IMG/VR virus record: IMGVR_UViG_3300017768_000118
Coordinates: 1-20,461 of that record
Length of the DNA stretch: 20,461 bases
Direction: 5' to 3' (one strand)
Origin: a virus
Shown here: one piece after another, positions 997-14,764 of the stretch
Layout of the letters: every line of letters begins with the position of its first letter
Position numbering within the stretch: the stretch's first letter is position 1
Notes under the pieces: model-generated
What the model was told of the DNA's origin: nothing
Database searches by the model: none
The model's input: the letters and a program-made list of their open reading frames with translations, nothing else
Position numbers and translations under genes: made by a program

Positions 997-2068
997 CACT
1001 GATGTAAAGCCGTTAAGTTCATTTTATAGTACAAATATGAATCCTATGGTTGATTCATATGATAAACTGGCTACTAGGATTGCACACACTTTAGGTTACC
1101 CACAGATAAACATCGAAGCGCATCAAAATCAAGTATATGAGAATATAAGTATAGCTATAGAGATGTTTTCAAAGTTCGCCGGATATACAGAAGAGCTTCT
1201 CACATTCAACACTGAATTATATGAACCCGGGAAGGGAATACAGATGGACGTGTTGTTTACAGCTACAGAACAATTGAACAGTTCGTATCCTGCAGACCCA
1301 AAGACAACAACACTAGATAAAGAACTATATGATGTGGGTAAGATGATCATCGGTGGTGGTCCATTAGATTTTGGAGTATCATACAGAGGCGCTTCAGATG
1401 GAGATGCTCGAGGGATGGGTAGAGATGGTTCTAGTCGCCCGGAGCTGAGTACACGTACACAAACAGCACCAGAGTCTGAAAAGCCTGTACCAAACAAAAA
1501 AGGGTATGACTATTTAACAGATAGTTATAGAAAAGTGGTGGATTGTTTTTCCTTCGAGGAAGGTAGCACATCAGGTATTAATACACTATTCACAATTGAG
1601 CAAACATTAGCTCAGCAAACATATTTTAGTTATGCTCTCGGTAAATATGGATTTGATCTTATCAGCTGGTTCACCATGAAAAATTGGCTAGACACTCGCA
1701 GAAAGCTTTTATCTCAAGATTATTATTATAGATTTGACGACCGAAAGCAGACATTATACTTAACACCAGAACCTAAAGCGGGTAGAAGAGCTGATTTTTA
1801 CGGTATTATAGGTTGTTATGTCGAGAGACCGGTTTGTGAGTTGGTGTCAGAACAATGGGTATATCAATATTCACTTGCATTAACAAAAATAATTATAGGT
1901 AGAATTCGAGGCAAATACCAAGGTACAAATTTATTCGGTGGTGGTCAACCAAATTATTCTGAATTGCTCAGCGAAGGTAATGCTGAGAAAGATAAACTTG
2001 AAGAAAGGTTATATGAGGGTGTACCAGGATTCGGTGATGGTCAACCACCTCTATTCTTTGTTGGATAA
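989..2068 (+). CDS. Putative virion structural protein (possible neck/head-tail connector)
   Basis: This 359-residue protein starts at ATG 989, inside the end of the upstream gene, with a good ribosome site (GAGGTGA about 4 nt before the ATG). The middle (about residues 130-165) is rich in G, S, R and P and looks like a linker. The flanking parts look folded, with conserved-looking aromatic stretches such as 'WVYQYSLALTKIIIGRIRG' near residue 290. It has no signal peptide, membrane segment or catalytic motif. Proteins of this size and style sit beside neck and head genes in marine T4-like phages, and the tight coupling to a fibre-like gene upstream and head genes downstream suggests a virion component. 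T4 gp13/gp14-like neck function is possible but is inferred only from place. Confidence 0.55.
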   Translation: MSDTDVKPLSSFYSTNMNPMVDSYDKLATRIAHTLGYPQINIEAHQNQVYENISIAIEMFSKFAGYTEELLTFNTELYEPGKGIQMDVLFTATEQLNSSYPADPKTTTLDKELYDVGKMIIGGGPLDFGVSYRGASDGDARGMGRDGSSRPELSTRTQTAPESEKPVPNKKGYDYLTDSYRKVVDCFSFEEGSTSGINTLFTIEQTLAQQTYFSYALGKYGFDLISWFTMKNWLDTRRKLLSQDYYYRFDDRKQTLYLTPEPKAGRRADFYGIIGCYVERPVCELVSEQWVYQYSLALTKIIIGRIRGKYQGTNLFGGGQPNYSELLSEGNAEKDKLEERLYEGVPGFGDGQPPLFFVG

Positions 2069-2069
2069 C

Positions 2070-2414
2070 ATGGAGTACATATACAAGATAGAGGTTTTAA
2101 GAGTAATAGACGGTGATACTATAGATGCAGAAATAGACTTAGGATTTGATATATCTATACAAAAAAGAATACGCCTACACGGTATCAACGCTCCAGAAGT
2201 AAGAACAAGAGACAAAGAGGAAAAGGCTAGAGGTTACAAGGCAAAAGAATATCTTGAAAGTATTATTAAGCAGCAGAACAATGTACTATATTTAAAATCG
2301 ATGGACAAGGGTAAGTATGGTAGATGTATAGGTATATTGTTTGAAGTTGACTTTGATAATTGTAGCATAAATGATGATATGATACATGAAGGTCATGCCA
2401 CGCCATATAAATGA
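2070..2414 (+). CDS. Staphylococcal-nuclease-like (thermonuclease) endonuclease
   Basis: This 114-residue protein matches the SNase fold, a Ca-dependent phosphodiesterase family cutting DNA or RNA. Visible motifs are VIDGDT (residues 12-17, metal site), 'RIRLHGINAPE' (R35 and E43 as in the S. aureus enzyme) and 'KYGRCIG' with R85 at the place of catalytic Arg87. The residue matching Asp40 is Asn40. The frame is open further upstream to an ATG at 1938, but that would run 131 nt inside the preceding gene, and the SNase domain begins directly after ATG 2070, two bases past the upstream stop. The gene ends in an ATGA overlap with the gp4 homologue, so the two are probably translated together. It has no signal peptide and should act in the cytoplasm, perhaps in host DNA breakdown or DNA end processing. 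Confidence 0.85.
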   Translation: MEYIYKIEVLRVIDGDTIDAEIDLGFDISIQKRIRLHGINAPEVRTRDKEEKARGYKAKEYLESIIKQQNNVLYLKSMDKGKYGRCIGILFEVDFDNCSINDDMIHEGHATPYK

Positions 2415-2881
2415 AGAAAAAACCTTATAAGAAATATAAACAGTACAGACAAGGCACATACCGACCAGTCAATTCAACAAAATACAAAGGAGCGAAATAC
2501 CCTAGATACTTGAGTAGTTGGGAGCTTAAATTCTTCAAGTGGTGTGATCGTAATCCTAATGTAATTCAATGGACAAGTGAATCTGTATGTATACCATATA
2601 TATCACCAGTGGATGGTAAGATGCATAGATATTATGTTGATAATACAGTTCATATTAATGAAGGTACTAAAATTGTCAAATACTTGATAGAAATCAAGCC
2701 TAGCAAGCAGACAAGACCACCATCAAAGCATGGCAATAAAAAAAGATCTACTATAATACATGAGGCTGCAACCTGGGAGGTTAATCAAGCCAAATGGGTC
2801 GCAGCAAAAAACTGGAGTGACAAGAACGGGTTTATATTTCAAATCGTGACTGAAAAGGACTTTAATTTATTCACTCGTTAG
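2411..2881 (+). CDS. 4: Head completion nuclease, T4 gp4 homologue
   Basis: The 156-residue product is close in length to T4 gp4 (about 150) and shares its hallmark layout: a basic N-terminus 'GTYRPVNSTKYKG', then 'SSWELKFFKWCDRNPNVIQW', 'SPVDGKMHRYYVDN' and 'YLIEIKPSKQ'. These fit a PD-(D/E)XK nuclease core, with E38, D77 and the E94-x-K96 pair as likely metal and catalytic residues. In T4, gp4 acts with gp50 to finish filled heads before tails join, and is thought to trim DNA. The start is the ATG overlapping the stop of the nuclease gene upstream (ATGA). In T4, gene 4 lies far from genes 21-23; here it lies immediately upstream of gene 21, so head maturation functions are clustered. Confidence 0.88.
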   Translation: MKKKPYKKYKQYRQGTYRPVNSTKYKGAKYPRYLSSWELKFFKWCDRNPNVIQWTSESVCIPYISPVDGKMHRYYVDNTVHINEGTKIVKYLIEIKPSKQTRPPSKHGNKKRSTIIHEAATWEVNQAKWVAAKNWSDKNGFIFQIVTEKDFNLFTR

Positions 2882-2900
2882 TGGAAAACCATAGGAGCTA

Positions 2901-2908
2901 AATAAATA
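2901..2908 (+). promoter_or_regulatory. Possible T4-type late promoter upstream of gene 21
   Basis: AATAAATA lies 7 nt before the ATG at 2916, one base off the T4 late consensus TATAAATA. If the start site is 6 nt downstream, as in T4, the leader would be about 2 nt. An AGGAG stands 18 nt from the ATG, too far for a normal ribosome site. This match is weaker than the other late promoters listed. Confidence 0.35.
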
Positions 2909-2915
2909 TAATTAA

Positions 2916-3614
2916 ATGCATGCAAAATTATTAGTAGAAACATCCGATCCGAAGGATTTTGAATATATAATCGAAGAGAAGAGTAACAACTCCAAATCGA
3001 CTATATACATACAAGGACCGTACGCGATGGCCACGAGCGATCCTCAAGCCGCCAACAAGAATAAAAGATGTTATTGTCCGGATGAGATGAGGAACGAGGT
3101 CAATAGATATAATGAACAGATGGTACAAACCAAACGCGCTCTAGGAGAATTGAACCATCCGACTAGCGCAGATGTTAATCTTGAACGTGCCTGTCATTTA
3201 GTTGTAGAATTAAAGCCAAGTGAATCAGATTCAAATATATATATCGGAAAATCAAAGGTTTTATCAACACCTAGTGGTATGGTTGTTGAATCATTAATCA
3301 GAGATGGGTGTAGTGTTGGTATGAGCACTAGGTCGCTAGGCAAGTTGATACAAATGGAAGAGGACTCTTCAGTCAGTCAAGTACAAGACATGCGACTGGT
3401 GGCTGTTGATTGTGTTGCTGATCCGAGTTTTGGTGAAGCGTTTGTGAACGGTATTCTAGAGAGCAAGCAATATGTATTAGACACATACGGTCAATATGTA
3501 GAAGCATATGAAACCTTCGAACAAGGTCTTACTAATCTGCCACGTAAGGATGTAGAGAGTTATTTGAAGAATAACATACTCGAATTTATTAGCAAAATTA
3601 AAGAAAGTATTTAA
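2916..3614 (+). CDS. 21: Prohead core protease, T4 gp21 homologue
   Basis: This 232-residue protein (T4 gp21 is 212) belongs to the prohead serine protease family that cleaves scaffold and capsid proteins inside the immature head. Key features are 'LGELNHPTSADVNLE' with the catalytic His at residue 81, the serine-rich stretch 'GCSVGMSTRSLG' (residues 131-142) carrying the nucleophile, and 'VAVDCVADPSF' (162-172), all typical of phage prohead proteases. A 34-nt gap separates it from gp4, and the next gene starts 2 nt after its stop. The order protease, linker gene, scaffold, capsid matches the T4 head block. Its expected substrates are the gp22 and gp23 homologues encoded directly downstream. 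Confidence 0.9.
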   Translation: MHAKLLVETSDPKDFEYIIEEKSNNSKSTIYIQGPYAMATSDPQAANKNKRCYCPDEMRNEVNRYNEQMVQTKRALGELNHPTSADVNLERACHLVVELKPSESDSNIYIGKSKVLSTPSGMVVESLIRDGCSVGMSTRSLGKLIQMEEDSSVSQVQDMRLVAVDCVADPSFGEAFVNGILESKQYVLDTYGQYVEAYETFEQGLTNLPRKDVESYLKNNILEFISKIKESI

Positions 3615-3615
3615 A

Positions 3616-3780
3616 ATGAAAGAACAATCTCCTCAAATTAAACAATCAATAACGCAATTTGTTAAGCACTTAACAGATAAAAATTATGCGGAAGCCAATA
3701 AGTTTTTAAAGAAAACGGTGGAAACTAAGCTTTTTGACCGGATTAAGCCCCACAAAAGCATAAATATTTTTAAGCAATGA
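3616..3780 (+). CDS. 54-residue protein between protease and scaffold genes
   Basis: A short gene runs from ATG 3616 to TGA 3778-3780 and fills the gap between genes 21 and 22. It starts 2 nt after gene 21 and overlaps gene 22 by ATGA, an arrangement unlikely for noncoding DNA. The product is small, basic and helical, with the segment 'DKNYAEANKFLKKTVETKL' followed by 'RIKPHKSINIF'. T4 carries small prohead core proteins (gp67, gp68) next to gene 21, so a minor core or scaffold protein is a reasonable guess, but no secure similarity can be shown by eye. A late promoter motif for gene 22 lies within its last codons. Confidence 0.65.
   Translation: MKEQSPQIKQSITQFVKHLTDKNYAEANKFLKKTVETKLFDRIKPHKSINIFKQ
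3759..3766 (+). promoter_or_regulatory. 22: T4-type late promoter for scaffold/capsid genes
   Basis: CATAAATA, one base from TATAAATA, lies inside the end of the 54-residue gene. A start 6 nt downstream (about 3772) would give a leader of about 5 nt before ATG 3777. It would allow extra transcription of genes 22 and 23. Confidence 0.5.
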
Positions 3781-4703
3781 GTGATAACAGCATAAAAGAA
3801 CAATTGAAAAAGGTTGCCTCTGATGTCTTGACTGAAGATACACTAGACGGCATCCAAGAAGCATTTAACCAATCTGTACAGGAGAAGTCAGAAAAGTTAG
3901 CCGAACTCCGCGTTGAGAAAGCTCTCATCGAACAAGATGAAGAACATGCGGTTAAGCTAGAAAAACTACTGGAAGCCATTGATGCCGATCATACATCTAA
4001 GCTACACCGTGTCGTAAAAGCTATTGACACAAATCATTCACAAAAACTTGTGGCTCTAGCAGAGAAGTTCAAGGGTGAATTAGATACTGATGCTGACACA
4101 TTCAAAGAGAGTGTTATTGACAACATCAGCAATTATCTGGATCTGTATATTGAGAAAGTTATACCTGCTGAAGATATACAAGAGGCTGTTAAAAACAAAC
4201 ATGCAGCATCATTATTAGAAAATTTAAGAAAAACATTATCCATTGACAGCGCGCTAGCTAATGAACAGATTAGAGATGCAGTCATGGATGGAAAAAAACA
4301 AATTGATGAATCTACTGCTGAGGTAGAAAAGCTCAAACATAACAACAAAGTTCTTGCAGAGACACTACAAGTCGAGAAGGCTAAATTGACACTCGAGCAA
4401 CTTACAAGCGGATTACCAGCAGTAAAAAAGCGGCACATAGAGAAAGTGTTAGATGGTAAATCAGCTGAATTCATCACAGAAAATTTTCAATACACACTTG
4501 ATATGTTCGATAAAACAGAGACACAAAAGTTGGATCAATTAAGAGAGCAAGTAGCTCCGAAGACACCAGCTGACCGTCCTGTTGCTGGCAAGAAAGAAAC
4601 AATACAAGAGAGTGTTGCACAAAAAATCGAACAAGAAGAACCTAATAAGTTACAAGACACTGGTCTATTTAACAACTACATGGGGGAACTTGGAAAATGG
4701 TAA
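3777..4703 (+). CDS. 22: Prohead core scaffold protein, T4 gp22 homologue
   Basis: The 308-residue product is almost wholly charged and helical, with long predicted coiled coils (about residues 25-115 and 165-215), as in the T4 gp22 scaffold around which the prohead assembles. It has a 'VIPAEDIQEAVKNKHAA' segment and a C-terminal 'DTGLFNNYMGELGKW', a tail style common to T4-like scaffolds. Glutamate after small or hydrophobic residues occurs often, offering cleavage sites for the gp21 protease, which degrades the scaffold during maturation. Its place directly before the capsid gene supports the call. The start is the ATG overlapping the preceding stop, which is also the first ATG after the late promoter motif at 3759. 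Confidence 0.85.
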   Translation: MSDNSIKEQLKKVASDVLTEDTLDGIQEAFNQSVQEKSEKLAELRVEKALIEQDEEHAVKLEKLLEAIDADHTSKLHRVVKAIDTNHSQKLVALAEKFKGELDTDADTFKESVIDNISNYLDLYIEKVIPAEDIQEAVKNKHAASLLENLRKTLSIDSALANEQIRDAVMDGKKQIDESTAEVEKLKHNNKVLAETLQVEKAKLTLEQLTSGLPAVKKRHIEKVLDGKSAEFITENFQYTLDMFDKTETQKLDQLREQVAPKTPADRPVAGKKETIQESVAQKIEQEEPNKLQDTGLFNNYMGELGKW

Positions 4704-4741
4704 AAATAATTTTTGTTGAGGCTCTTAGAAGCCTGAGTTAT

Positions 4742-4747
4742 GGAGGT
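4742..4747 (+). promoter_or_regulatory. 23: Strong Shine-Dalgarno site of the capsid gene
   Basis: GGAGGT lies 8 nt before ATG 4756 and is the best ribosome site in the window. A short hairpin (AGGCT at 4719-4723 with AGCCT at 4730-4734) stands just before it in the leader. Efficient translation suits the most abundant virion protein and contrasts with the missing sites before many other genes here. Confidence 0.75.
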
Positions 4748-4755
4748 ATAGAGAT

Positions 4756-6207
4756 ATGTCACAGGTAAAACCCGCACAATCATATATCGATGAGGCACGA
4801 GCAGGAACACTTCTTGAGAAGTGGGCTCCTGTATTGGACTACAGTTCCGATAACGTTGCTCCTATTACAGACGATCACTCACGTTTGAACACCGCAATTC
4901 TTTTGGAAAACCAAGAGAACTGGTGCTTGAATGAGAATTCGGCTGGATCAGGAGGAGTTTTCGGAACCGCCGGAAGCATGGGACATGGAGGAGCAATGAC
5001 TCCTGCATCTGATTTCTATGCACAAGGCGATGCACGTCTTCCAAAGATCCTCATTCCGATGATTCGTCGTACATTTCCTGAACTTATCACTAACGAGATC
5101 GTTGGCGTTCAACCAATGAGCGGTCCTGTGGGACTCGCTTTTGCTATGCGTTACAAATACGAAGCTGATTCTCTAGGAGCAGATGGCATTGATGGCCACG
5201 CTTCCGGCAAAGTCGACACCCAATCCGGAGTAACCGGTGGTGGGTCAGACGATGACGAAGCAGGTTATCAACAACTTGACACCCGTTTCACGGGTACCGA
5301 GTCTGATGACCTAGGAGATCAGGATTTCACTGATAATATCGGTGCATTCGTAGATGAAGACTCTGGTGTTGCAAAAGCACTTGCTGATTATGAGCTAACC
5401 GGTAAAATTCCTCAGATGGTCGTTTCTTTTGAAAAGACCGCTGTTGAAGCTGGTACTCGTAGGCTTGCTGCTCGCTGGTCCGTCGAACTTGAACAAGACC
5501 TCAAGAACATGAATGGTATTGATATCGATACTGAATTGACAAACGCTATGTCGTATGAAATTCAGGCCGAAATCGACCGTGAAATGCTCATGAGAATGGT
5601 TCAAGTATGCGCATCCAACGCTGCTGGAGGTAAGGGTGTTAGCACCTGGAGCCCTGCAACAGCTGATGGGCGCTGGATGGCAGAACGTAACCGTGACCTA
5701 TATGCCAAGATTATAGTTGAAGCGAATCGAATCGCTATCCGCAACCGTCGTGGTGCTGCTAATTTCTTAGTCGCAACACCTCGTGTTTGTGCGATTCTTG
5801 AAATGCTCCCTGAGTTTCAGTGGATGCAAGTTCAAGGCAACGTCAACACGCAACCTGTTGGTATCGCTCGTGTTGGTAATCTCGGAGGAAGGTTCAACGT
5901 ATATCGCGACACACGTACAGAAGGCCAGTTCGAAGATGGCAAGCGTTCAGAAGGACGCTTGGAATACATTCTTCTTGGTTATAAAGGACCTGAGTTTTAC
6001 GACACAGGAATCATTTATTGCCCGTACATCCCAGTGATGGTACAGAGAACTGTTGGTCCTAATGACTTTGCTCCCCGCGTAGGTTTGTTAACACGTTACG
6101 GCGTTGTTGATAACATCTTCGGAGCAGAGCTTTACTATCACGTAATCGTTGTCAAGAATCTTGGTGATTCGTTCACACCCGGCACACAGTCGGTGTACTT
6201 CGGATAA
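4756..6207 (+). CDS. 23: Major capsid protein, T4 gp23 homologue
   Basis: This 483-residue protein has the T4 gp23 hallmarks: 'RRTFPELITNEIVGVQPM', 'GLAFAMRYKY', 'RWSVELEQDLKNMNG' and 'YYHVIVVKNLGDSF' near the end. It forms the hexameric shell of the head (HK97 fold). The gp21-type processing rule (hydrophobic-x-Glu) is met at LNE, residues 58-60, so the mature protein probably starts at Asn61; the first 60 residues would be the scaffold-binding propeptide. A glycine/serine/aspartate-rich insertion lies at about residues 145-190. Codon choice is noticeably more G+C-rich at third positions than in the neighbours, as expected of a highly expressed gene. It has a strong ribosome site and is followed by a terminator. 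Confidence 0.97.
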   Translation: MSQVKPAQSYIDEARAGTLLEKWAPVLDYSSDNVAPITDDHSRLNTAILLENQENWCLNENSAGSGGVFGTAGSMGHGGAMTPASDFYAQGDARLPKILIPMIRRTFPELITNEIVGVQPMSGPVGLAFAMRYKYEADSLGADGIDGHASGKVDTQSGVTGGGSDDDEAGYQQLDTRFTGTESDDLGDQDFTDNIGAFVDEDSGVAKALADYELTGKIPQMVVSFEKTAVEAGTRRLAARWSVELEQDLKNMNGIDIDTELTNAMSYEIQAEIDREMLMRMVQVCASNAAGGKGVSTWSPATADGRWMAERNRDLYAKIIVEANRIAIRNRRGAANFLVATPRVCAILEMLPEFQWMQVQGNVNTQPVGIARVGNLGGRFNVYRDTRTEGQFEDGKRSEGRLEYILLGYKGPEFYDTGIIYCPYIPVMVQRTVGPNDFAPRVGLLTRYGVVDNIFGAELYYHVIVVKNLGDSFTPGTQSVYFG

Positions 6208-6303: not shown

Positions 6304-7233
6304 CTATTGCTTGGCTGTTTTGGCGTGCAATACACTAGCGTTGGTCAACTTCTTATTCAACACACTCTTATCACTGACGCGTGTAGGATTGATATCAATA
6401 CCACCACGTCTAGCATACAAGCAAGACACAGCTAGAGTTTCTGGCTTCAGAAGATCACTTAATCTCTTGTATATTGTCTCACATATCTCTTCATGAAAGT
6501 GACACTCGTCTCGAAACGATATAATATATTTTAATAATGATAGTGGCGAGACTGTCTTCTCAGCTGTGTAACTGATATACACATCACCCCAATCTGGTTG
6601 GCTCGTGACTCGGCAGTTACTCTTTAACAAGCTACTATGATAAAACACAGGCTGACCCTCTGCCCAAGCTGGCCACTTGTCTACCACTTGTAACAACCCC
6701 GGAGTCTCATTATATACATTAACATCTTTACCATACAATCTCTCATGGGGTACAATGGACTCTAGTGTGTGATACTTATCGTCAATAAAAACCGGTTCTC
6801 CCGTGGCTTTGACACGCGACGGTAATATATCCACAATAACCTCTGTCTCTAGCGAGCTAGACAAATCACCAGAGATTGTTTTCTTGAGAAACTCAAACAC
6901 TGCAGATTCTGATGAACCACATTTGTACATGTTGAATGAATTCAAATACAACTTGAGACTTTTACTCTCTACAATAAATTTACTCTCACATGGATACACA
7001 ATCTTAGCCACACCAGAAATAGGGAGCCCGTTATCAGTTAGAGCGCTCACTTCGTAAGCATTCCATATATCATAGCCTACAAAGGGCAAGTTACCTTCAC
7101 TAATGTCTAGATGTTTCCTGTTATTTGATCGAGGCTCTGGTACTATCAATTCAGGATCATATTGATCCTTGTATTGTGATACCTGTCCTAAATGTTTTGA
7201 TATGTTACTATTATCTAATACTTTGTTACTCAT
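6304..7233 (-). CDS. queF: NADPH-dependent 7-cyano-7-deazaguanine (preQ0) reductase QueF
   Basis: QueF reduces the nitrile of preQ0 to the aminomethyl group of preQ1 using two NADPH. The 309-residue product is the long, two-domain form (E. coli type, about 280 residues). The substrate/NADPH motif 'YPCESKFIVESKSLKLY' lies at residues 80-96. The catalytic segment 'SNCRVTSQPDWGD' carries the nucleophile C207 and the proton donor D214, seven residues apart as in E. coli C190/D197, and 'FHEE' gives H247 and E248. All key residues are present. It overlaps the kinase gene upstream by 8 nt, so the two form one operon. In bacteria QueF serves tRNA queuosine; in a phage with dpdA nearby, the likely use is a supply of preQ1 for DNA modification. 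queC, queD, queE and folE are not in this window. Confidence 0.96.
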   Translation of the reverse strand: MSNKVLDNSNISKHLGQVSQYKDQYDPELIVPEPRSNNRKHLDISEGNLPFVGYDIWNAYEVSALTDNGLPISGVAKIVYPCESKFIVESKSLKLYLNSFNMYKCGSSESAVFEFLKKTISGDLSSSLETEVIVDILPSRVKATGEPVFIDDKYHTLESIVPHERLYGKDVNVYNETPGLLQVVDKWPAWAEGQPVFYHSSLLKSNCRVTSQPDWGDVYISYTAEKTVSPLSLLKYIISFRDECHFHEEICETIYKRLSDLLKPETLAVSCLYARRGGIDINPTRVSDKSVLNKKLTNASVLHAKTAKQ

Positions 7234-7798
7234 TATTAATTGTTGTTAAAATTGTTTGCATGCGTGTATCTACATCCCCTGTCAATCGTACTACTTTACT
7301 TCGCCATGTATGCACGCCAGAGATTGACCCGGAATTTTCAAGTATGTCTTCATATATATCTATTATATCATTTCTAAATTGAGAATCAACGCTTCTTTCA
7401 CCGTCATCTTCTATTCTTATATCATCAGGCTCAGTATAAAATATCACATCTAATTTACCTCCTAGATGTGACAGTAAGCATCTAGAATAATCTAAGACCC
7501 ATTTCGATACCTTGCCGTTCTTATGTAACCAATGTGTATAAACATAACCATCTAATATACATCTATCCAATATAGCATCACCTAATCTCATGATATGATT
7601 CTCTAAATGTTCTTTTAAAATGAATAGTTGAGTCGTATCATCACCATCTTCATTTATCACATGTCCCATTCTACCGACTTTACGTGTTACTTCAGGGACA
7701 TACTCGAATATTCTATCATGTCTCGGTAGTTCAACTTTACACTTCTCTAGCAATGTTGATTTTCCTGTGCATTGTGCGCCTGTAAAACTAACTAACAT
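7226..7798 (-). CDS. P-loop kinase/ATPase of the NadR/AAA_28 type
   Basis: This 190-residue protein opens with a Walker A loop GAQCTGKST (residues 7-15) right after the first strand, as in nucleoside, nucleotide and NadR-type kinases. A 'LDRCILDGYVY' segment near residue 78 resembles the DR motif of deoxynucleoside kinases, and 'DVIFYTEPDDIRIEDDGER' near residue 115 resembles the lid region of NadR-like phage ATPases. The likely role is phosphorylation of a nucleoside, nucleotide or related small molecule; the substrate cannot be told. It is first in a two-gene operon with queF (8-nt overlap). A perfect TATAAT sits 6 nt before the ATG, so its mRNA is probably leaderless. Because DpdA acts on finished DNA, a kinase for a modified dNTP is not required; the link to queF may concern NAD(P) or nucleotide supply. 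Confidence 0.7.
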   Translation of the reverse strand: MLVSFTGAQCTGKSTLLEKCKVELPRHDRIFEYVPEVTRKVGRMGHVINEDGDDTTQLFILKEHLENHIMRLGDAILDRCILDGYVYTHWLHKNGKVSKWVLDYSRCLLSHLGGKLDVIFYTEPDDIRIEDDGERSVDSQFRNDIIDIYEDILENSGSISGVHTWRSKVVRLTGDVDTRMQTILTTINNE

Positions 7799-7804
7799 AA
7801 TACT

Positions 7805-7810
7805 ATTATA
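7805..7810 (-). promoter_or_regulatory. -10 element of a leaderless promoter for the kinase-queF operon
   Basis: TATAAT lies exactly 6 nt before the ATG at 7798, the same spacing as in the early array at 16790-20180. No good -35 is seen at 17 nt (TAGCAA), so it may be an activator-dependent (middle-type) promoter. Confidence 0.6.
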
Positions 7811-7873
7811 ATATAAACTCTATCAGATTGCTACTCATCATCTCGGAAAATTATGTCTTTTTATATCCATGAA

Positions 7874-8206
7874 TCATTCACTCGGAAAATCAAGACGATC
7901 ATCCATGTCCTCTCGACATCTTTCAGCATACATGGCACATAGCATGTTCCATACAACAGCTGCCGCATGATCTTCATCATCCTTACTGGACCACCATGCT
8001 TCTAAATGTCGATGAGCACAATCATAATACACACTCAACGGCATACCTTTCATCCAGTTGTTCTCTCCATACTTTTCTGCACCATCTAGAAACCTTTTCA
8101 TCACACGTTTTAATTCTTTCTGTGGTATCAGGCTCATTCTGAGTTTACCATCACCTGTGTCTCGTTGAGCTCCTGTGTCAAATTGTCTATTCTTCTCTTC
8201 CTTCAT
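7874..8206 (-). CDS. dATP/dGTP pyrophosphohydrolase-like protein
   Basis: The 110-residue product matches the phage family annotated as dATP/dGTP diphosphohydrolase N-terminal domain. It shows 'FDTGAQRDTGDGKLRMSLIP', 'GAEKYGENNWMKGMP', 'HRHLEAWW' and then 'DDEDHAAAVVWNMLCAMY'. The acidic and histidine positions resemble the all-alpha NTP pyrophosphatase metal site. The predicted reaction is (d)NTP to (d)NMP plus pyrophosphate. ATG 8206 is chosen because the conserved part begins about 9 residues later; ATGs at 8260 and 8221 lie deeper in the preceding gene. With ATG 8206 the overlap with that gene is 20 nt. The role may be pool adjustment during replication, or removal of purine dNTPs; which one is not visible here. 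Confidence 0.75.
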   Translation of the reverse strand: MKEEKNRQFDTGAQRDTGDGKLRMSLIPQKELKRVMKRFLDGAEKYGENNWMKGMPLSVYYDCAHRHLEAWWSSKDDEDHAAAVVWNMLCAMYAERCREDMDDRLDFPSE

Positions 8207-8399
8207 TAATATCCGTTGCATCCTTATGTTGATAGTGTGGAAAGTATGTCCACAATCCACACCATGCTGCCATTATTATAGAAAAAACCGCCATATATGA
8301 ACCTCCACGAGCTAAAATTACTGCTACTATCACATTTATAATACATGCTACTGCTAACATTTTACCCTTGTTGTTCAAGTTTCTCCACGGCGACATCAT
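8187..8399 (-). CDS. Small two-helix membrane protein
   Basis: The 70-residue product has two clear hydrophobic segments, about residues 14-31 (AVACIINVIVAVILARG) and 35-52 (YMAVFSIIMAAWCGLWTY), with a short basic N-terminus and a charged C-terminus, so it is probably a hairpin in the inner membrane. It starts in an ATGA overlap with the upstream gene and overlaps the pyrophosphohydrolase downstream, as a middle gene of a compact operon. Function is unknown; small membrane proteins of this kind in phages include exclusion and holin-like proteins, but nothing specific is seen. Confidence 0.6.
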   Translation of the reverse strand: MMSPWRNLNNKGKMLAVACIINVIVAVILARGGSYMAVFSIIMAAWCGLWTYFPHYQHKDATDINEGREE

Positions 8400-8926
8400 C
8401 GCTTAGTAGTTATCTTCGGTCCGGTTTTATTCCACAGATCAACCTCGCATATTCTCAGATTATCACCATTGATAGAAAATCTTTTGATATCCCCAGTACT
8501 TGTACGCTTTCTAGTCAATCCACGCTTCTCAATCTCTACACAATCAACTAGATCTGTACCATTATATCCATGCTCGTAAGATGTGCTAAATAGACCATCC
8601 GGATGTGTAAATCCAATAATAACACCATACACAGGTTTGCTGTGAGTGTTTTTACGTTGTACAACGTCTCCCAATTCGTAATTGCCTTTAGTATTAAATG
8701 TGAATGTCTCATCAATTAGTTTACATCGTTCAATCGGTACTCTCTTTCTTCTAAAAGAGCCATCAAGTTTGTATATAGGTTTAAGTCTCTTATCATATAA
8801 AATAATTTCGTAGCTTTTATCTCCAACGTAACCGTAAACCTCTCCTACATGTAATTTACTATCATATTTACATTTGATCACGCTGCCTATCTCAATCTCT
8901 CCTTCTCTATCAATTTTCAGTATCAT
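8396..8926 (-). CDS. Hypothetical protein, possible tandem SH3/KOW-like barrels
   Basis: This 176-residue gene is not recognised. The sequence is beta-rich and basic. Two segments look alike: 'IGSVIKCKYDSKLHVGEVYG' near the start and 'LGDVVQRKNTHSKPVYGVII' near residue 85. Each resembles the 'G-D-V-V...G-x-V' pattern of small SH3-like barrels, often RNA- or protein-binding. No catalytic motif or membrane segment is seen. It overlaps the lipoprotein gene by 17 nt and the membrane protein gene by 4 nt, so it belongs to the same transcript. Confidence 0.55.
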   Translation of the reverse strand: MILKIDREGEIEIGSVIKCKYDSKLHVGEVYGYVGDKSYEIILYDKRLKPIYKLDGSFRRKRVPIERCKLIDETFTFNTKGNYELGDVVQRKNTHSKPVYGVIIGFTHPDGLFSTSYEHGYNGTDLVDCVEIEKRGLTRKRTSTGDIKRFSINGDNLRICEVDLWNKTGPKITTKR

Positions 8927-9143
8927 ATTTTAGTGGTATTATTGTGTTATTTACTGTTTGCTTGGCGAGCACAATTTTTTGCTCTTCAGTTAGATTATTA
9001 TCTACAAATTTGTGTTTAATAGTTAAATTTACAGGTGCAGAATTTAAATCAATCTTAATATTATGATCGAGTGTTATATGATGTGTTGAATGCATGTAGC
9101 AACCTGTTTGAAATAATAGTAATATAGATGTAATGAATTTCAT
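8910..9143 (-). CDS. Small putative lipoprotein
   Basis: The 77-residue product begins 'MKFITSILLLFQTGCYM', a short lysine start, a hydrophobic core and a cysteine at residue 15 after Thr-Gly, consistent with a lipoprotein signal although the -3 residue (Gln) is unusual. The mature part is about 60 residues, beta-rich then helical, with no recognised domain. It is first in a four-gene unit with the hypothetical, membrane and pyrophosphohydrolase genes. An envelope role such as superinfection exclusion is possible but is only an inference from size and location. A 24-bp inverted repeat lies 2 nt before its ATG. Confidence 0.6.
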   Translation of the reverse strand: MKFITSILLLFQTGCYMHSTHHITLDHNIKIDLNSAPVNLTIKHKFVDNNLTEEQKIVLAKQTVNNTIIPLKYDTEN

Positions 9144-9145
9144 TA

Positions 9146-9169
9146 ATTATCAGATGTTATACTGATAAT
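9146..9169. repeat. Perfect 8-bp inverted repeat upstream of the lipoprotein gene
   Basis: ATTATCAG (9146-9153) and CTGATAAT (9162-9169) are separated by 8 nt. The block ends 2 nt before the ATG at 9143 and overlaps a possible -10 (TATAAC). It could be an operator for a dimeric regulator or, in RNA, a hairpin directly before the start codon. A TTGCAC/17 nt/CATATT promoter-like pair reads into it on the minus strand. Confidence 0.5.
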
Positions 9170-9203
9170 ATGTTATGTTTTCATGATTAGTGCAACTATA
9201 TTG

Positions 9204-9737
9204 CTAGGTTAATTGTACAACCCACAGATCAGTCGCCATCTCATGTAACTTGTCTGTTAGTGATTGTATTCCGTAAACATTGTTTCGTGTTGAACATTCC
9301 GAGACAACCGGGCCTTCATCTACACCTGAAGTAACTCGATGTATTACACAACCTATTAAATCATACTCTTTAATGGTCTCTTCAGCGACTTTCTTTTGAG
9401 GGTCTGCTCCTTTCAACTCCGGGTATTTAGTTATCAACCCTGGGTGTAGGTTATAGATTTCATAGTCCTTACATATCTTCCCCGGTACTATTCTCATCCA
9501 TCCGTGTAATGTTACGATACTATCCTCTAGTATTATGCGTTCATAATCTTCAATTTCTGGTCGATTTGATGTGTATACAATATCCGTATTACTTGCTATG
9601 TTCTTATTGATACACGTTGCACCTGGTTTATTGTTTGTTACTATTCGATCCGGTAACCGGTTGATTTTTCTTGAAATGTTGTAAATCTCCGAACCAGTAT
9701 GGCTGAAGAATGCTGTCCATTTTTTACCTTCTATCAT
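9204..9737 (-). CDS. dpdN: GART-fold formyltransferase, probable dPreQ1 formyltransferase (DpdN-like)
   Basis: The 177-residue product has the formyltransferase fold of PurN (10-formyl-THF-dependent glycinamide ribonucleotide transformylase). The opening 'FFSHTGSEIYNISRKI' parallels the PurN nucleotide loop. 'YNLHPGLI' supplies N96 and H98, and 'IHRVTSGVDEGPVV' supplies D140, the full Asn-His-Asp catalytic set. The gene is joined to dpdA by an ATGA overlap, so the two proteins are made from one mRNA in coupled fashion. DpdN is the name of a predicted phage enzyme that formylates the aminomethyl group of preQ1 in DNA; with QueF and DpdA present, that role fits better than purine synthesis. PurN itself remains the alternative, since marine phages also carry purN; sequence alone does not settle it. 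Confidence 0.75.
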   Translation of the reverse strand: MIEGKKWTAFFSHTGSEIYNISRKINRLPDRIVTNNKPGATCINKNIASNTDIVYTSNRPEIEDYERIILEDSIVTLHGWMRIVPGKICKDYEIYNLHPGLITKYPELKGADPQKKVAEETIKEYDLIGCVIHRVTSGVDEGPVVSECSTRNNVYGIQSLTDKLHEMATDLWVVQLT

Positions 9738-10582
9738 AATGTGACTGCAGACCCGAGTGACACATGCCGGTTTAGTATCTTTTTAAACATGTTTGTATTA
9801 TAATATATGGCCTCTAGCTGTGTATCATCGACCTTATGTTCTATCAGATCCGCTAGTAGCGTCTTTGGTTTCTTATATAGTCCCATATCATCATTATATC
9901 TGAGACCTTTAATTCCAGCAACCACCGGGTTGCTTGTATCAACACTCTTAATATTGTATACGTTATTGTTAACATAATATTTAAACTCCCTAGCAAGGCT
10001 GCACCCTAACAAATGATGTGGCTTCTCCCAACACCAATGACCCTCATCAATTAATTGTCGTATAAATCTTTTCCTACCTGAACAGAACTTCGTTAATTTA
10101 ATTTCCGCCCAATCATCTTCAACCAACCCGATTGCTTGATAGTAATTATAGTCAAAGCTAATGGCTATGTAATCCGCTCGATCCTTCATGAAGTTATAAC
10201 ATTTAACCAATTCATTCCAATCTCTACCCTGTACAACTCCTATACGTAACGCGTCAGTATTATCACCAAACTTTAATTCCCAATCTTTCCATTGCTGCAT
10301 AGTGTCTGAAGCACTCTCTAACACATCCGGGACTATATACCAGTTAGGTTGTAATTTATCAATCCATTCTACATATTTCTTTGGATCAAAGCTTTTACCC
10401 AACTCAAAAATACTATTATCCAACAATACTGGTATGTCTGTTGTGTCTACCAATTTCTTAAAAAAATTATAATATTCCGGGTGAGTTTCAAATAAATGTA
10501 CTAGTGCATAACCATAGTCATTGTATGATAATGACTCTTGTAATATACTGATCGGGCTCTCATGTGATGTTTCAATCTTCAT
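9734..10582 (-). CDS. dpdA: DNA guanine transglycosylase, DpdA family
   Basis: DpdA enzymes are relatives of tRNA-guanine transglycosylase that exchange guanine in DNA for a 7-deazaguanine. The 282-residue product shows the family pattern: 'SHESPIS' at the N-terminus, 'PVLLDNSIFELG' with acidic D55 (matching the first TGT aspartate), 'WYIVPDVLES', the TGT-like 'RIGVVQG' (residues 113-119), 'HHLLGCSLA' and 'SVDTSNPVVAG' with D215 as the likely nucleophile. The frame is open to an ATG at 10672, but the conserved part begins directly at ATG 10582, and a consensus promoter ends 7 nt before it, so 10582 is preferred and the mRNA would have almost no leader. It is followed by the formyltransferase in an ATGA overlap. 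The subfamily cannot be fixed by eye. Confidence 0.85.
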   Translation of the reverse strand: MKIETSHESPISILQESLSYNDYGYALVHLFETHPEYYNFFKKLVDTTDIPVLLDNSIFELGKSFDPKKYVEWIDKLQPNWYIVPDVLESASDTMQQWKDWELKFGDNTDALRIGVVQGRDWNELVKCYNFMKDRADYIAISFDYNYYQAIGLVEDDWAEIKLTKFCSGRKRFIRQLIDEGHWCWEKPHHLLGCSLAREFKYYVNNNVYNIKSVDTSNPVVAGIKGLRYNDDMGLYKKPKTLLADLIEHKVDDTQLEAIYYNTNMFKKILNRHVSLGSAVTL

Positions 10583-10589
10583 ATAACTT

Positions 10590-10618
10590 ATTATAGAATA
10601 TAGAGTTGCATATGTCAA
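10590..10618 (-). promoter_or_regulatory. Consensus sigma-70 promoter for dpdA-dpdN
   Basis: TTGACA (10618-10613), a 17-nt spacer and TATAAT (10595-10590) form an exact consensus promoter. The predicted start is at about 10583, one base before the dpdA ATG, so the mRNA is essentially leaderless. Confidence 0.9.
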
Positions 10619-10635
10619 CTGTTTTATATTATAAT
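10606..10635 (+). promoter_or_regulatory. Divergent promoter for the clpC-like gene
   Basis: TTGCAT (10606-10611), an 18-nt spacer and TATAAT (10630-10635) precede ATG 10648, giving a predicted leader of about 6 nt and no ribosome site. Its -35 overlaps the dpdA -35 inside a 15-bp near-palindrome, GTTGCATATGTCAAC (10605-10619), so the two promoters should compete or share a regulator. Confidence 0.65.
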
Positions 10636-10647
10636 AAATAATAATAT

Positions 10648-13110
10648 ATGAGCAAGTTCCCAAATTTATCAACGAGCTGTAGACGTGTCTTGGCTACCTC
10701 AAAAGTTATAGCATGTGATTGCTTTCATGATTTTCTAACAACTGAGCATTTGTTATTAGGTATACTCGAGCAACGCCGACCATCAATGGGTGTGAAGAAA
10801 TTACTCGAGATGGGTATGGATGTGATGGAGTTTAAAAGCTTTATTATTACTAATCTTAAAAAATACAAAGGAGACAAAAAACCTGTGCTGAACACAATAG
10901 AGCCAACCGATAGGGTGTTAACTATGTTTGAATATGCTAGCTGTATTGCACAAGAGTTAGAATCACCAGTTGTCGATATAGATCACATGTTATTAAGCAT
11001 ACTCGTAAGTGACTCTGGAGCCGGAAATAATCTATTTAAATTAAAAAATATAGATGTAGATTTTCTATATGACTTAATATACACAGAACTGACACCTAAA
11101 GATAAAAAAAATAAAAAGTCAAAACAAAAACAAACTACTGGTCAAACTAATGAGTCAACAAAAGAAACAGAAACAGAAGGTGAGGATAAGTTATTACAAT
11201 TCGCAACAGATTTGACCAAACAAGCGTACAATGGAGAGCTAGATCCTGTTGTTGGTAGAGAAGAAGAACTACAATCTATTATACATGTGTTATGCCGAAG
11301 GAAGAAAAATAACCCAGTATTGATCGGAGAACCCGGTGTTGGAAAAACTGCCATAGTCGAATCGTTAGCACAAAAAATTATCGAAGGTGATGTCCCGGCT
11401 AAACTAAGAAACAAAACAATATATGCATTGGATCTTGCTAGATTGGTAGCAGGTACTATATATAGAGGTCAATTTGAAGAGAGAATAAAAGAAGTTATAG
11501 CTTATGTGAGTTCACGAGATGATGTCATAATGTTTATTGATGAACTACACACACTGGTAGGCGCCGGCAGTGCTACAGGTAGTATGGATGCTAGTAATAT
11601 ACTAAAACCAGCATTAGCGAGAGGTACCATATCTTGTATAGGAGCAACTACAACTAGCGAATATAAAGAGCATATAGAAGCAGACGGTGCACTGGATCGT
11701 AGATTTCAATCAACATATGTAAATGAACCTGCGTGTGATGATGTGATGAACATATTAAGAGGAATTAAAGGTAAGTATGAGACGTTCCATAACGTAAGGT
11801 ATACAATACCAGTTATGTCACATATCGTAGACCTGGCGGATAGATATATAACTGATCGGAACTTTCCAGATAAAGCGATTGATATACTAGATGAAATTGG
11901 AGCTAGAGCTCGTTGTGATCAATACACTCCCAACCCAGACATGCAAAATCTCTTACAAGAGCTAAAAGAAACCACATTAAAAAAACATACAGCAGTCACA
12001 ACACAACAGTTTGAAAAGGGTTTAGAATATAGAGCGCGAGAACAAATCATACAGCAACAACTATTAAAGATGGATGCAGAGACTCTCACTGGTGATGAAA
12101 ATGTCACGTTAAAAATAACTGTAGATGAAGTTTCAGAACTTATTGCTGATAAAACTGGCATACCTGTAGCTAAGTTGAATGAAAGTGAAATTAACACCTT
12201 ACGCAAATTAGAGAGTCGAATGAAGACAGTTGTAGTGGGACAAGAACCTGGCATCTCCAAGATAGTATCCGCTATAAGAAGAAGCCGAGCTGGTGTGAGT
12301 GATCCTGATAAGCCTATATGTTCGTTACTATTTTTAGGCCCGACTGGGGTAGGTAAAACACACCTCGCCAGATGTTTGGGTGATGAGTATTTTGATAACA
12401 ACTGCTTCAAGCAGTTCGATATGTCTGAATTTTCTGAAAAGCATAGTGTAAGTAAATTGATAGGATCACCTCCAGGATACGTCGGTTATGGTGAAGGTGG
12501 TGCCTTGACAGAATTTGTTAGATTCAATCCATACTCTGTTATATTGTTTGATGAGATAGAGAAAGCTCATCCAGAGGTGTTGCAGATATTTTTACAGTTA
12601 TTCGAGTATGGGATGGTGACAGATAGTGAGGGTTTAGAAGTAAACTTCAAAAACACAATCATCGTCATGACGAGTAACATTGGTTCCCATAAGTTTGATA
12701 AGGGAGACACTGTTGGATTCGGTACTGTTAATACAGATATAGATCAAGCTGTAATTAACGAGATACAAAAGCTATACGCACCTGAGTTACTGAACCGGAT
12801 TGATGAGTTAGTTGTCTTCAAGAGGTTGTCAGACAATGATATGGTGACTATAGCTGAGTTGCAGTTGAGCCGGCTCAAGAAAAACGTCCGGAAAAACACA
12901 AAAAATCAATTAACGTTCGATCCTGATGTTGCTAGATTTATTGTGTCAAAAATAGATACAGATAAATATGGAGCACGACCGCTCAAGAGATATATAGTAA
13001 CGGAGATTGAGAATCGAATCGCTGAAGAGATAATGTCTGCGAGAGCAGAACAACCAACAAAATATAATATTAGTGTGAGAAATGGTACTATCTCAGTAAA
13101 TGCTGACTAA
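10648..13110 (+). CDS. clpC: ClpC-like AAA+ protein unfoldase
   Basis: The 820-residue product is a complete class I Clp ATPase. It has a double Clp_N repeat (residues 4-145), a basic linker, AAA module 1 with Walker A GEPGVGKT (227-234) and Walker B IMFIDE (294-299), a short ClpC-style middle segment 'AVTTQQFEKGLEYRARE' (449-465), and AAA module 2 with GPTGVGKT (564-571) and VILFDE (631-636). A 'DTVGFG' loop (VGF, 689-691) stands where ClpA and ClpC carry the tripeptide that docks into ClpP; ClpB lacks it and has a much longer coiled coil. No ClpP is encoded in the window, so the protein could use host ClpP, redirecting host proteolysis, or act as an unfoldase alone. It is transcribed divergently from dpdA. 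ClpA-type naming is the main alternative. Confidence 0.92.
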   Translation: MSKFPNLSTSCRRVLATSKVIACDCFHDFLTTEHLLLGILEQRRPSMGVKKLLEMGMDVMEFKSFIITNLKKYKGDKKPVLNTIEPTDRVLTMFEYASCIAQELESPVVDIDHMLLSILVSDSGAGNNLFKLKNIDVDFLYDLIYTELTPKDKKNKKSKQKQTTGQTNESTKETETEGEDKLLQFATDLTKQAYNGELDPVVGREEELQSIIHVLCRRKKNNPVLIGEPGVGKTAIVESLAQKIIEGDVPAKLRNKTIYALDLARLVAGTIYRGQFEERIKEVIAYVSSRDDVIMFIDELHTLVGAGSATGSMDASNILKPALARGTISCIGATTTSEYKEHIEADGALDRRFQSTYVNEPACDDVMNILRGIKGKYETFHNVRYTIPVMSHIVDLADRYITDRNFPDKAIDILDEIGARARCDQYTPNPDMQNLLQELKETTLKKHTAVTTQQFEKGLEYRAREQIIQQQLLKMDAETLTGDENVTLKITVDEVSELIADKTGIPVAKLNESEINTLRKLESRMKTVVVGQEPGISKIVSAIRRSRAGVSDPDKPICSLLFLGPTGVGKTHLARCLGDEYFDNNCFKQFDMSEFSEKHSVSKLIGSPPGYVGYGEGGALTEFVRFNPYSVILFDEIEKAHPEVLQIFLQLFEYGMVTDSEGLEVNFKNTIIVMTSNIGSHKFDKGDTVGFGTVNTDIDQAVINEIQKLYAPELLNRIDELVVFKRLSDNDMVTIAELQLSRLKKNVRKNTKNQLTFDPDVARFIVSKIDTDKYGARPLKRYIVTEIENRIAEEIMSARAEQPTKYNISVRNGTISVNAD

Positions 13111-13375: not shown

Positions 13376-13829
13376 GGCTCCGATAAGTATTTATATGGGA
13401 CCTATATTGAATACAATCATTGGGGCGGGAATAAAAATTGGCGTTAATTGGATAAACGCATGGATTGAGCAAAAAAGGCAAGATCAAATGATGTTAGCCG
13501 CTAGAGACGAGAGACTCATGCAGGCTATACTGGATAATCAACAGCAACAGGCGAACGATCCATTTGTTAAGATAACACGCCGTGTATTGTTCATGAGCAT
13601 AACATTTACATTATGTTTCTTGATGATATATTATGCACTGAACCCAGGCATTACCTATGATGTTATTGTACCACGAGGAGATAGCTCTAGATTTGGTATA
13701 TTCACATGGGTGTTTGGAGGTAAAGATTGGGAGTTAGTGCAAATGACTGGCGGTTTACTACTCACTAGCTTCTTTGATCTATGCTTTATGGTAGTCGGCT
13801 TTTACGCCGTGCCTAGCAAGAGACGTTAA
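13374..13829 (+). CDS. Membrane protein of unknown function (holin-like topology)
   Basis: The 151-residue product has an amphipathic or hydrophobic N-terminus (residues 8-28), a charged helical stretch (32-62), then two membrane segments at about 71-89 (VLFMSITFTLCFLMIYYAL) and 124-146 (TGGLLLTSFFDLCFMVVGF), ending in a basic tail SKRR. A ribosome site AAGG lies 8 nt before the ATG. It is co-oriented with the clpC-like gene about 260 nt upstream, and its stop overlaps the stop of the converging protease gene (TTAA). Small multi-span proteins with charged C-termini include holins, and a secreted protease gene lies beside it, but no diagnostic motif is present. Confidence 0.65.
   Translation: MAPISIYMGPILNTIIGAGIKIGVNWINAWIEQKRQDQMMLAARDERLMQAILDNQQQQANDPFVKITRRVLFMSITFTLCFLMIYYALNPGITYDVIVPRGDSSRFGIFTWVFGGKDWELVQMTGGLLLTSFFDLCFMVVGFYAVPSKRR
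13388..13395 (-). promoter_or_regulatory. T4-type late promoter before the zinc-finger-like gene
   Basis: TATAAATA followed by CTTAT closely matches the extended T4 late consensus TATAAATACTATT. The predicted start at about 13382 leaves a 7-nt leader before ATG 13375. It lies inside the plus-strand membrane protein gene. Confidence 0.65.
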
Positions 13830-14755
13830 TTTTCGAAGAATTCACCAACGGTTGAAGTTTTGTCTTCAATCCTTATAAGAAACTGCTCTTTTTTACCCTT
13901 TTTCTTGGTGCTAATTACCACATCCTTGCTCCCGGCAGTTTCAACCGGTAAATCTTTAATTGTCTTTAGATCAGGTACTGGTAGCTTAGGGTCTAGTGCC
14001 CACATGATGTCATGTTCTTCCGCCCATCTGACCATTCTCCTGATAGGTACCATTAAATTGAACCCTTCACCTGCACCACGGACGATCATTCCTACATATT
14101 GCCCGTCTTGTAAATACACACCACCACCACTACTACCAGGGAATGCTGTAACGGTCGTTTGATCATATTCTACTTTGTCTCTAATACGCCCGACCTGACT
14201 AACAATACCACTGGTCATACTGTTAGAACCAAATTGACCTAGTAACGAACCAACATGAAACAGTGGTGTTCCGATCGGAATGATATTATCTTCTTTATTT
14301 AAATGAAATCGCGCACTGGCTTTTCCGTAATCTTTTGCACGTACCATTAGTACCGCGAGATCCTCTCCAGTGTCTGCATCACTATACTTAATGACAGTTG
14401 CAGCCATCTTCATCTCACCAACCCGGCGGCCACTTTCAACAAGCTCTTTGATTATCTGCACGTCACTAAATTCTACAATTTTCTTCGGCATGCCAGCCTC
14501 AATCACTGTACGTACAGATCTTAAATTGTCGACAACATGCCCACATGTCCATACAAATGTTATTTGTTCTCCACCGATCTCACGTGTTATTAACACGCCA
14601 GAGCCTTCCGAATTGCTGTATTTACCTTCCGATCGTATAGTTACAGATATATCTTGTAGATACTTTGATACATTACGTGTCTCTTTTGGAGACAGTGCAT
14701 ATGTTAAATTGAGTGTTAAGGATAGTAGCAGTATGGTGGTTAATATTCGTTTCAT
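13826..14755 (-). CDS. Secreted trypsin-like (HtrA/S1C-type) serine protease
   Basis: The 309-residue product begins 'MKRILTTILLLSLTLNLTYA', a standard Sec signal peptide with probable cleavage after Ala20. The trypsin fold follows, with a full catalytic triad: H73 in 'WTCGHVV', D132 in 'GEDLAVL' and S209 in 'FPGSSGGGV'. The C-terminal 60 residues are basic and contain no PDZ domain. It should therefore act in the periplasm or outside the cell. ATG 14755 is chosen because a late promoter places the mRNA start at about 14759; an in-frame ATG at 14761 would add two residues. Phage proteases with signal peptides are uncommon; possible roles are lysis, degradation of envelope proteins or receptors, or processing of virion proteins. 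Its target cannot be seen. Confidence 0.88.
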   Translation of the reverse strand: MKRILTTILLLSLTLNLTYALSPKETRNVSKYLQDISVTIRSEGKYSNSEGSGVLITREIGGEQITFVWTCGHVVDNLRSVRTVIEAGMPKKIVEFSDVQIIKELVESGRRVGEMKMAATVIKYSDADTGEDLAVLMVRAKDYGKASARFHLNKEDNIIPIGTPLFHVGSLLGQFGSNSMTSGIVSQVGRIRDKVEYDQTTVTAFPGSSGGGVYLQDGQYVGMIVRGAGEGFNLMVPIRRMVRWAEEHDIMWALDPKLPVPDLKTIKDLPVETAGSKDVVISTKKKGKKEQFLIRIEDKTSTVGEFFEN

Positions 14756-14764
14756 GTACATTTT

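Follow-up and report, generated by a model that had tools for sequence, protein, structure and literature searches.

The complete IMG/VR virus record IMGVR_UViG_3300017768_000118 (20,461 bases, hereafter the window) carries a DNA modification cassette that includes queF, a small dpdA and a formyltransferase (FT) gene. Its gene content suggests that the cassette could make a formylated 7-deazaguanine that replaces genomic guanine, with the base exchanged on a nucleotide, a proposal that we hold about as readily as we doubt it; that some base of the preQ1 family is present in the phage DNA appears highly probable. The QueF, DpdA-type transglycosylase and FT genes called in the initial annotation are all real, as judged by domains, residues and folds, and the same interval (6304–10582) also holds a kinase gene (7226–7798) and a DUF5664 gene (7874–8260) that were absent from that account. 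The stretch from dpdA to queF recurs at 100% identity in an IMG/VR record of a different sample (IMGVR_UViG_3300017720_002743). The features of the cassette are as follows.

6304–7233, − strand: queF, 309 amino acids (aa), bimodular NADPH-dependent preQ0 reductase predicted to convert preQ0 to preQ1
7226–7798, − strand: P-loop nucleoside/nucleotide kinase-like protein (AAA_28, phrog_2107), overlapping the start of queF
7874–8260, − strand: DUF5664 protein (PF18909, dATP/dGTP diphosphohydrolase N-terminal), probable deoxynucleoside triphosphate pyrophosphohydrolase
8396–8926, − strand: unknown 176-aa protein without a Pfam match, confined to the closest relatives
8910–9143, − strand: unknown 77-aa open reading frame (ORF), no match in Pfam and PHROG searches
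9204–9737, − strand: FT (PF00551), 177 aa, proposed DpdN-like preQ1 N-formyltransferase
9734–10582, − strand: dpdA, 282 aa, guanine transglycosylase with a tRNA-guanine transglycosylase (TGT) fold, of the family of Campylobacter phage CP220 and Flavobacterium phage vB_FspM_immuto_2-6A (immuto) (phrog_19058)
10590–10619, − strand: dpdA promoter (TTGACA-17-TATAAT) and near-palindrome

The preQ1 amine as the likeliest substrate of FT is a well supported assignment, based on gene context, residues, phylogeny, the lack of purine genes and the exchange of FT for another protein in its slot. FT matched PF00551 with 41.2 bits (cut-off 26.1), and its residues N96, H98 and D140 align with N106, H108 and D144 of PurN, which bears out the N-H-D triad of a GART-fold formyltransferase first read from the sequence; this triad is intact in all 80 members of the FT family. 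In E. coli PurN, residues N13 and E173 contact glycinamide ribonucleotide (GAR), N13 being part of the phosphate-binding loop for GAR. The position of N13 is occupied by Glu in 80 of 80 FTs and that of E173 by Ala or Ser in 78 of 80. The score of FT against the PurN equivalog model TIGR00639 was 40.2 bits for a cut-off of 150.1, and in the tree a 100/98 branch sets the FT family apart from PurN, PurU and Fmt of E. coli, and likewise from two PurN sequences of the phage collection; Fmt and PurU form long branches, so that placement among the outgroups is unsure.

A search seeded with the FT alignment yielded 80 loci, or 56 after those more than 90% identical were dropped, and the ratios that follow refer to the loci with enough flanking sequence. 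DpdA was found upstream of FT in 47/49, typically with a 4-nt overlap, and downstream of FT there was a kinase in 49/49 and QueF in 47/49. The ATGA junction of dpdA and FT described originally was confirmed at 9734–9737, and many relatives have the same overlap. No PurD or AIRS domain was detected in 15 related large records, with control genomes positive in 13/14 and 14/14 cases. An outcome named beforehand as counting against a role in DNA modification was that FT should group with PurN and that related phages should carry purine genes; the tree and the 15 records gave neither. An ordinary PurN that boosts purine synthesis, with no tie to DNA modification, would account for the match to PF00551 and the weak one to TIGR00639, and PurN genes do occur in records of the phage collection; however, a score of about 40 bits is set against a PurN cut-off of 150, N13 is replaced throughout the family, the relatives are without purine genes, the linkage to DpdA and QueF is strict and a GNAT protein can take the FT slot. 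We rejected this identity on residues, tree and context, and the probability left to it is very small. Very probably, FT acts on preQ1, whether as the base, the nucleotide or a residue in DNA. The earlier prediction that all late steps toward formyl-preQ1 in DNA are encoded here holds in that FT goes with DpdA and QueF and has the preQ1 amine as its likeliest substrate, but exchange and formylation within DNA are not established, and the kinase and DUF5664 genes argue for exchange at the nucleotide level.

A pattern scan of genome contigs gave one cellular FT relative, locus L205 (1–7073 of DUVY01000197.1), a contig from a Clostridiales metagenome-assembled genome (MAG) with genes for MazG, DpdA, FT and DNA polymerase A. 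Its FT has a GTG start and overlaps DpdA; the locus is a far relative of the cassette, with queF and the kinase not within reach, and the contig is most likely phage sequence.

The FT slot is not always filled by FT. In four loci (L047, L048, L059 and L088) a protein of a single other family sits exactly between DpdA and the kinase, and the two members tested matched the GNAT model PF00583 with 28.5 and 22.9 bits (cut-off 20.7). In L047 the GNAT gene spans 6879–7421. When IMG/VR was scanned with a pattern built on the GNAT alignment, these four contigs alone came back, all with the order DpdA, GNAT, kinase, QueF. We also selected loci on DpdA alone, which gave 63 with at least 3 kb downstream and 50 after removal of redundancy; the acyltransferase slot was empty in 15 of 47 non-redundant loci of this selection. 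Because two unrelated N-acyltransferase folds share a slot beside the maker of an aminomethyl base, the preQ1 amine is the probable acceptor, and the swappable slot independently supports the formyl assignment. We infer catalysis by both FT and GNAT, and the slot swap predicts that the phages of the four contigs carry N-acetyl-preQ1, of which we know no report as a DNA base. In Cellulophaga phage phiSM (L201), unknown proteins encoded at 3230–3883 and 2166–2774 adjoin QueF and DpdA and are candidate preQ1-modifying enzymes.

QueF scored above the gathering thresholds of PF14819 (119.7 bits) and PF14489 (87.3 bits), and residues C207, D214, H247 and E248, on which it had been called complete, align with the Vibrio cholerae QueF structure 3bp1 (E value of 2e-47 over most of the length). 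The NADPH motif, defined as E-S/L-K-S/A-x-K-L-Y/F/W and absent from the QueF-L amidinotransferases, is found as ESKSLKLY at residues 89–96. With 248.7 bits against the NCBIfam equivalog TIGR03138, the protein falls below the cut-off of 293.45 and is therefore a divergent phage QueF, with a predicted activity of preQ0 reduction to preQ1. Searches with Pfam, PHROG and NCBIfam revealed no folE, queD, queE or queC among the main ORFs of the window. Among the 15 related large records, immuto included, QueC was above cut-off in 12, PTPS/QueD in 12 and FolE in 9, and with the QueE of immuto as query the matches outside immuto itself were all weak. The initial annotation had left preQ0 supply to the host or to another phage locus; the 20-kb fragment indeed carries no early genes, and given the counts in these relatives another phage locus is likelier than the host, so that the phage probably encodes the early preQ0 steps outside this fragment.

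DpdA was claimed by no family of Pfam or NCBIfam. The residues behind its first description as a DpdA-type transglycosylase (D55, D215 and GVVQG at 115–119) are present, D55 and D215 being invariant across 32 relatives, and the predicted model, with a predicted local distance difference test (pLDDT) score of 92, matched tRNA-guanine transglycosylases in Foldseek (E value of 6e-9) and superposed on 1iq8 with a Z score of 17.9 and a root mean square deviation (rmsd) of 3.0 over 235 aligned residues (VIA-align). By its model, DpdA is a TGT barrel. Profile comparison with DpdA1 of phages 9g and Dp-1 (hhalign) revealed nothing significant, and the protein groups with those of CP220 and immuto; membership of DpdA1 was rejected. 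DpdA3 is the subfamily name for the transglycosylases of phages with dense guanine replacement (Campylobacter CP220 group).

The kinase gene was present in 47 of the 50 DpdA-selected loci, and where FT is absent its start lies −13 to +9 nt from the dpdA stop. The protein matched PF13521 with 48.8 bits (cut-off 27), with G7, K13, D78-R79, R135 and R142 invariant, and its predicted model (pLDDT 91) has a P-loop kinase fold with a DR motif. A sequence search of solved structures gave chance matches only, whereas the model matched NadR ribosylnicotinamide kinase (Z score of 17.6), deoxyguanosine and deoxycytidine kinases (human deoxyguanosine kinase, 16.8) and thymidylate kinases, all tied at VIA Z scores of 16–17.6. 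With NadR among the best structural matches, the gene might be a hitch-hiker in the cassette that salvages NAD against NAD-depleting defenses. We think this role very improbable because the position of the kinase between DpdA/FT and QueF is fixed in dozens of different contigs; moreover, DNMK takes the place of the AAA_28 kinase in other DpdA lineages.

Across the small-DpdA lineages the kinase-type neighbor varies in family. AAA_28 adjoins DpdA in Campylobacter phages CP220 and CC_R7, DNMK lies beside dpdA in Vibrio phage D479 (36.3 bits) and Aeromonas phage Ahp1 (64.3 bits; cut-off 27.1), AAA_18 does so in phiST (29.8 bits) and MA9V-3 (32.4 bits; cut-off 29.4), and in Bacillus phages BSP7 and Youna2 the neighbor has a P-loop but belongs to no clear family. 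Ahp1 encodes a canonical DNMK elsewhere (167.8 bits), so that the divergent copy beside dpdA is its second. The DpdA of Rhizobium phage RHph_I1_18 carries a C-terminal fusion to DUF3310 (24.2 bits over a cut-off of 24.0), which we take to be the family of T7 gp1.7, an enzyme presumably acting on dGMP and dTMP. T7 gp1.7 has been termed a nucleotide kinase (PMC9712115). Scanning the neighbors for a plain P-loop motif failed to pick up phiST and the DNMK cases and is asymmetric in this sense, and Pfam was used for those.

In total, 11 of 13 small-DpdA lineages (L205 included) have a kinase-type neighbor, as opposed to none of 10 DpdA1-type controls (9g, Dp-1, CAjan, V07, ART, RHEph06, VpKK5, Typha, Mufasa8 and phiSM). 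The genes near DpdA1 include a sliding clamp in 9g, CAjan, RHEph06 and VpKK5 and a ParB-like gene in Typha, Mufasa8 and phiSM. At equal rates the chance of such a split is ~6e-5 (hand calculation, 78/1,352,078), or 3.4e-5 when computed with 11/12 lineages, values that serve as a guide only, since for the controls the verdict came from annotation and the P-loop motif, not from Pfam, and the lineages are not fully independent.

The DUF5664 protein matched PF18909 with 79.8 bits (gathering threshold 27). Genes of the MazG type are found near dpdA in phiST and L205, and a PRA-PH gene in immuto; the products of all three kinds of gene would supply dGMP and lower dGTP. In a Z-genome phage, a protein of the DUF5664 family turns dGTP, dATP and dUTP into the corresponding monophosphates (PMC12884076).

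These genes suggest the following route. QueF would reduce preQ0, made by phage genes beyond the fragment or by the host, to preQ1, and the GART-fold FT would formylate the aminomethyl group of preQ1 with 10-formyl-tetrahydrofolate; in sister phages the GNAT in the FT slot would acetylate preQ1, and an empty slot would leave plain preQ1. The small DpdA would put the modified base in place of guanine on a deoxynucleotide (dGMP being the likeliest) rather than in finished DNA, and the DUF5664 protein, by converting dGTP to dGMP, would both feed and skew the pool. The P-loop kinase would phosphorylate the modified nucleotide (or nucleoside), host NDP kinase would complete the triphosphate, and the polymerase would incorporate it, giving dense and not sparse replacement. 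The observations beneath this route are genes, folds, conserved residues, gene order and co-occurrence, from which we infer every substrate, the order of formylation relative to exchange and the level at which exchange takes place. Protection of the phage DNA from restriction is plausible by analogy with work on other 7-deazaguanines (PMC6884629).

Exchange at the level of the nucleotide or nucleoside seems to us an evenly balanced proposition, and it is the one we favor: a near-constant kinase, kinase-type neighbors of varied family, their absence at the DpdA1 controls and a DUF5664 gene in the cassette fit a nucleotide-level mechanism better than exchange in DNA. A phage precedent is DmtZ, which makes dZMP from dAMP and the base Z (PMC12884076). 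The main competitor, to which we assign a considerable but lesser probability, has DpdA working on DNA after replication, where it would insert preQ1 or formyl-preQ1 in place of guanine, with FT acting before or after insertion and the kinase merely aiding nucleotide supply. It draws on the TGT fold of DpdA, a fold that elsewhere works on polynucleotides. The current view of dense guanine replacement is likewise one of exchange in finished DNA, although the mechanism is unsettled, and Cui et al. (2023), who defined DpdA3 and DpdN, reportedly inferred post-replicative insertion. Enzymes of the DpdA1 type modify 1.7–32% of G, and CAjan without dpdA loses its modification (PMC6884629). What exchange in DNA explains less well is the constancy of the kinase together with the differing kinase-type genes around the small-DpdA family, when DpdA1-type genes have no such neighbors and several have clamp or ParB-like genes instead.

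Besides the fold and the post-replicative view just mentioned, several observations weigh against nucleotide-level exchange. Phage StAshley and the Clostridiales MAG locus L205 show no kinase nearby, and some of the kinase calls are weak: the DNMK of Bakedbeans is below cut-off, the DUF3310 match barely exceeds its own, and BSP7 and Youna2 offer a P-loop only. The DUF5664 gene occurs in just 13 of 50 DpdA-selected loci, and the Z-genome enzyme of this family works on dGTP at a tenth of its speed on dATP (PMC12884076). A DNA polymerase gene lies beside dpdA or one gene away in CC_R7, BSP7, Youna2 and StAshley, and after FT in L205; polymerase or clamp genes adjoin some DpdA1 genes too, however, so proximity to the polymerase alone cannot separate the two models. 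Finally, the model of the AAA_28 kinase fits nucleoside kinases and nucleoside monophosphate (NMP) kinases equally. This leaves room, within exchange ahead of polymerization, for a variant in which DpdA acts on deoxyguanosine and the kinase phosphorylates the 5′-OH of the nucleoside; the matches to the NadR ribosylnicotinamide kinase and to human deoxyguanosine kinase are in its favor, but the neighbor in D479 and Ahp1 is DNMK, an NMP-kinase family, and thymidylate kinase ties on Z score, and we regard this variant as unlikely. Extended to the CP220, immuto, BSP7, D479 and phiST groups as well as the window, nucleotide-level exchange would make their DpdA a nucleotide-level transglycosylase with a dedicated kinase, the slot leading to N-formyl-preQ1 (FT) or N-acetyl-preQ1 (GNAT), a generalization that we rate slightly below an even call.

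The closest described arrangement is that of immuto (NC_055915), which has the same order of dpdA, FT, AAA_28 kinase and queF, with proteins 42, 43, 33 and 44% identical, respectively, to those of the window. Unlike the window, immuto has queD, queE and folE within a few kilobases and a QueC-family gene ~15 kb away, and it carries the PRA-PH (MazG-type) gene where the window has DUF5664. In the CP220 group, DpdA is 43% identical to that of the window and adjoins an AAA_28 kinase, but CP220 appears neither among the FT matches nor among those listed for QueF. Campylobacter phages were reported to be highly modified by dADG although no DpdA had been found in them (PMC6884629); CP220 carries the small DpdA plus kinase. 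The DpdA1 phages (9g, CAjan and Dp-1) share 7-deazaguanine genes and a TGT-like enzyme with the window, and Dp-1 carries dPreQ1 (PMC6884629); they differ in having no kinase neighbor, partial replacement and no significant profile similarity. The Z-genome pathway (PurZ, MazZ/DUF5664 and DmtZ; PMC12884076) follows a like logic of pyrophosphohydrolase, base exchange on a deoxynucleoside monophosphate, phosphorylation and incorporation, but DmtZ is of the NDT family and handles diaminopurine nucleotides, whereas the enzyme of the window has a TGT fold and would handle 7-deazaguanine.

The dedicated kinase beside this DpdA family provides a direct, testable free-nucleotide alternative, parallel to the Z-genome enzymes, to exchange in finished DNA, and new modified nucleotides of this type are of interest both for how phages evade restriction and for the in vitro production of modified DNA. 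Cui et al. (2023; NAR 51:9214) are said to have reported fdPreQ1, named DpdN and described a DpdA3 subfamily that permits complete replacement. Their paper is among those cited in PMC12783734. The FT of the window is, like DpdN, a phage gene linked to DpdA and QueF. To our knowledge the published DpdN/fdPreQ1 pathway includes no kinase, no DUF5664 gene and no alternative of the GNAT type; if that work did report these things, the base itself is already known, and what is new here is the association with a kinase, GNAT as an alternative to FT and the level at which exchange is proposed to occur.

The dpdA promoter, TTGACA-17-TATAAT, matches the sigma-70 consensus at 12 of 12 positions, and because its −10 element ends 7 nt before the ATG the dpdA message is predicted to be leaderless. 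The near-palindrome GTTGACATATGCAAC (10605–10619) covers the −35 element. Each of the 50 loci retrieved (a number that includes duplicates) contains the pattern GTTGAYANNTGCAAC a single time, ~36 nt ahead of the dpdA ATG in those with a known start, which makes GTTGACATATGCAAC a likely operator.

The − strand orientation of the whole cassette is opposite to that of the head genes at 989–6207 on the + strand (head-tail adaptor, head closure, maturation protease and major head protein). A scan of the window for tRNA genes found none. The 176-aa protein at 8396–8926 had tblastn matches of 41–62% identity in many cassette loci. In L042, L050, L051/L166, L066, L068, L071, L075, L079, L083 and L089, dpdA is separated from FT by ~6 kb of other sequence, the cassette being otherwise intact. 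Divergent to dpdA, a ClpA/ClpB-like double AAA+ protein (10648–13110, + strand; phrog_4871) is a conserved neighbor in the closest relatives, and at 13826–14761 on the − strand the window encodes a trypsin-like serine protease (PF13365), for which PADLOC gave weak matches to LmuA and RT-Protease_XI.

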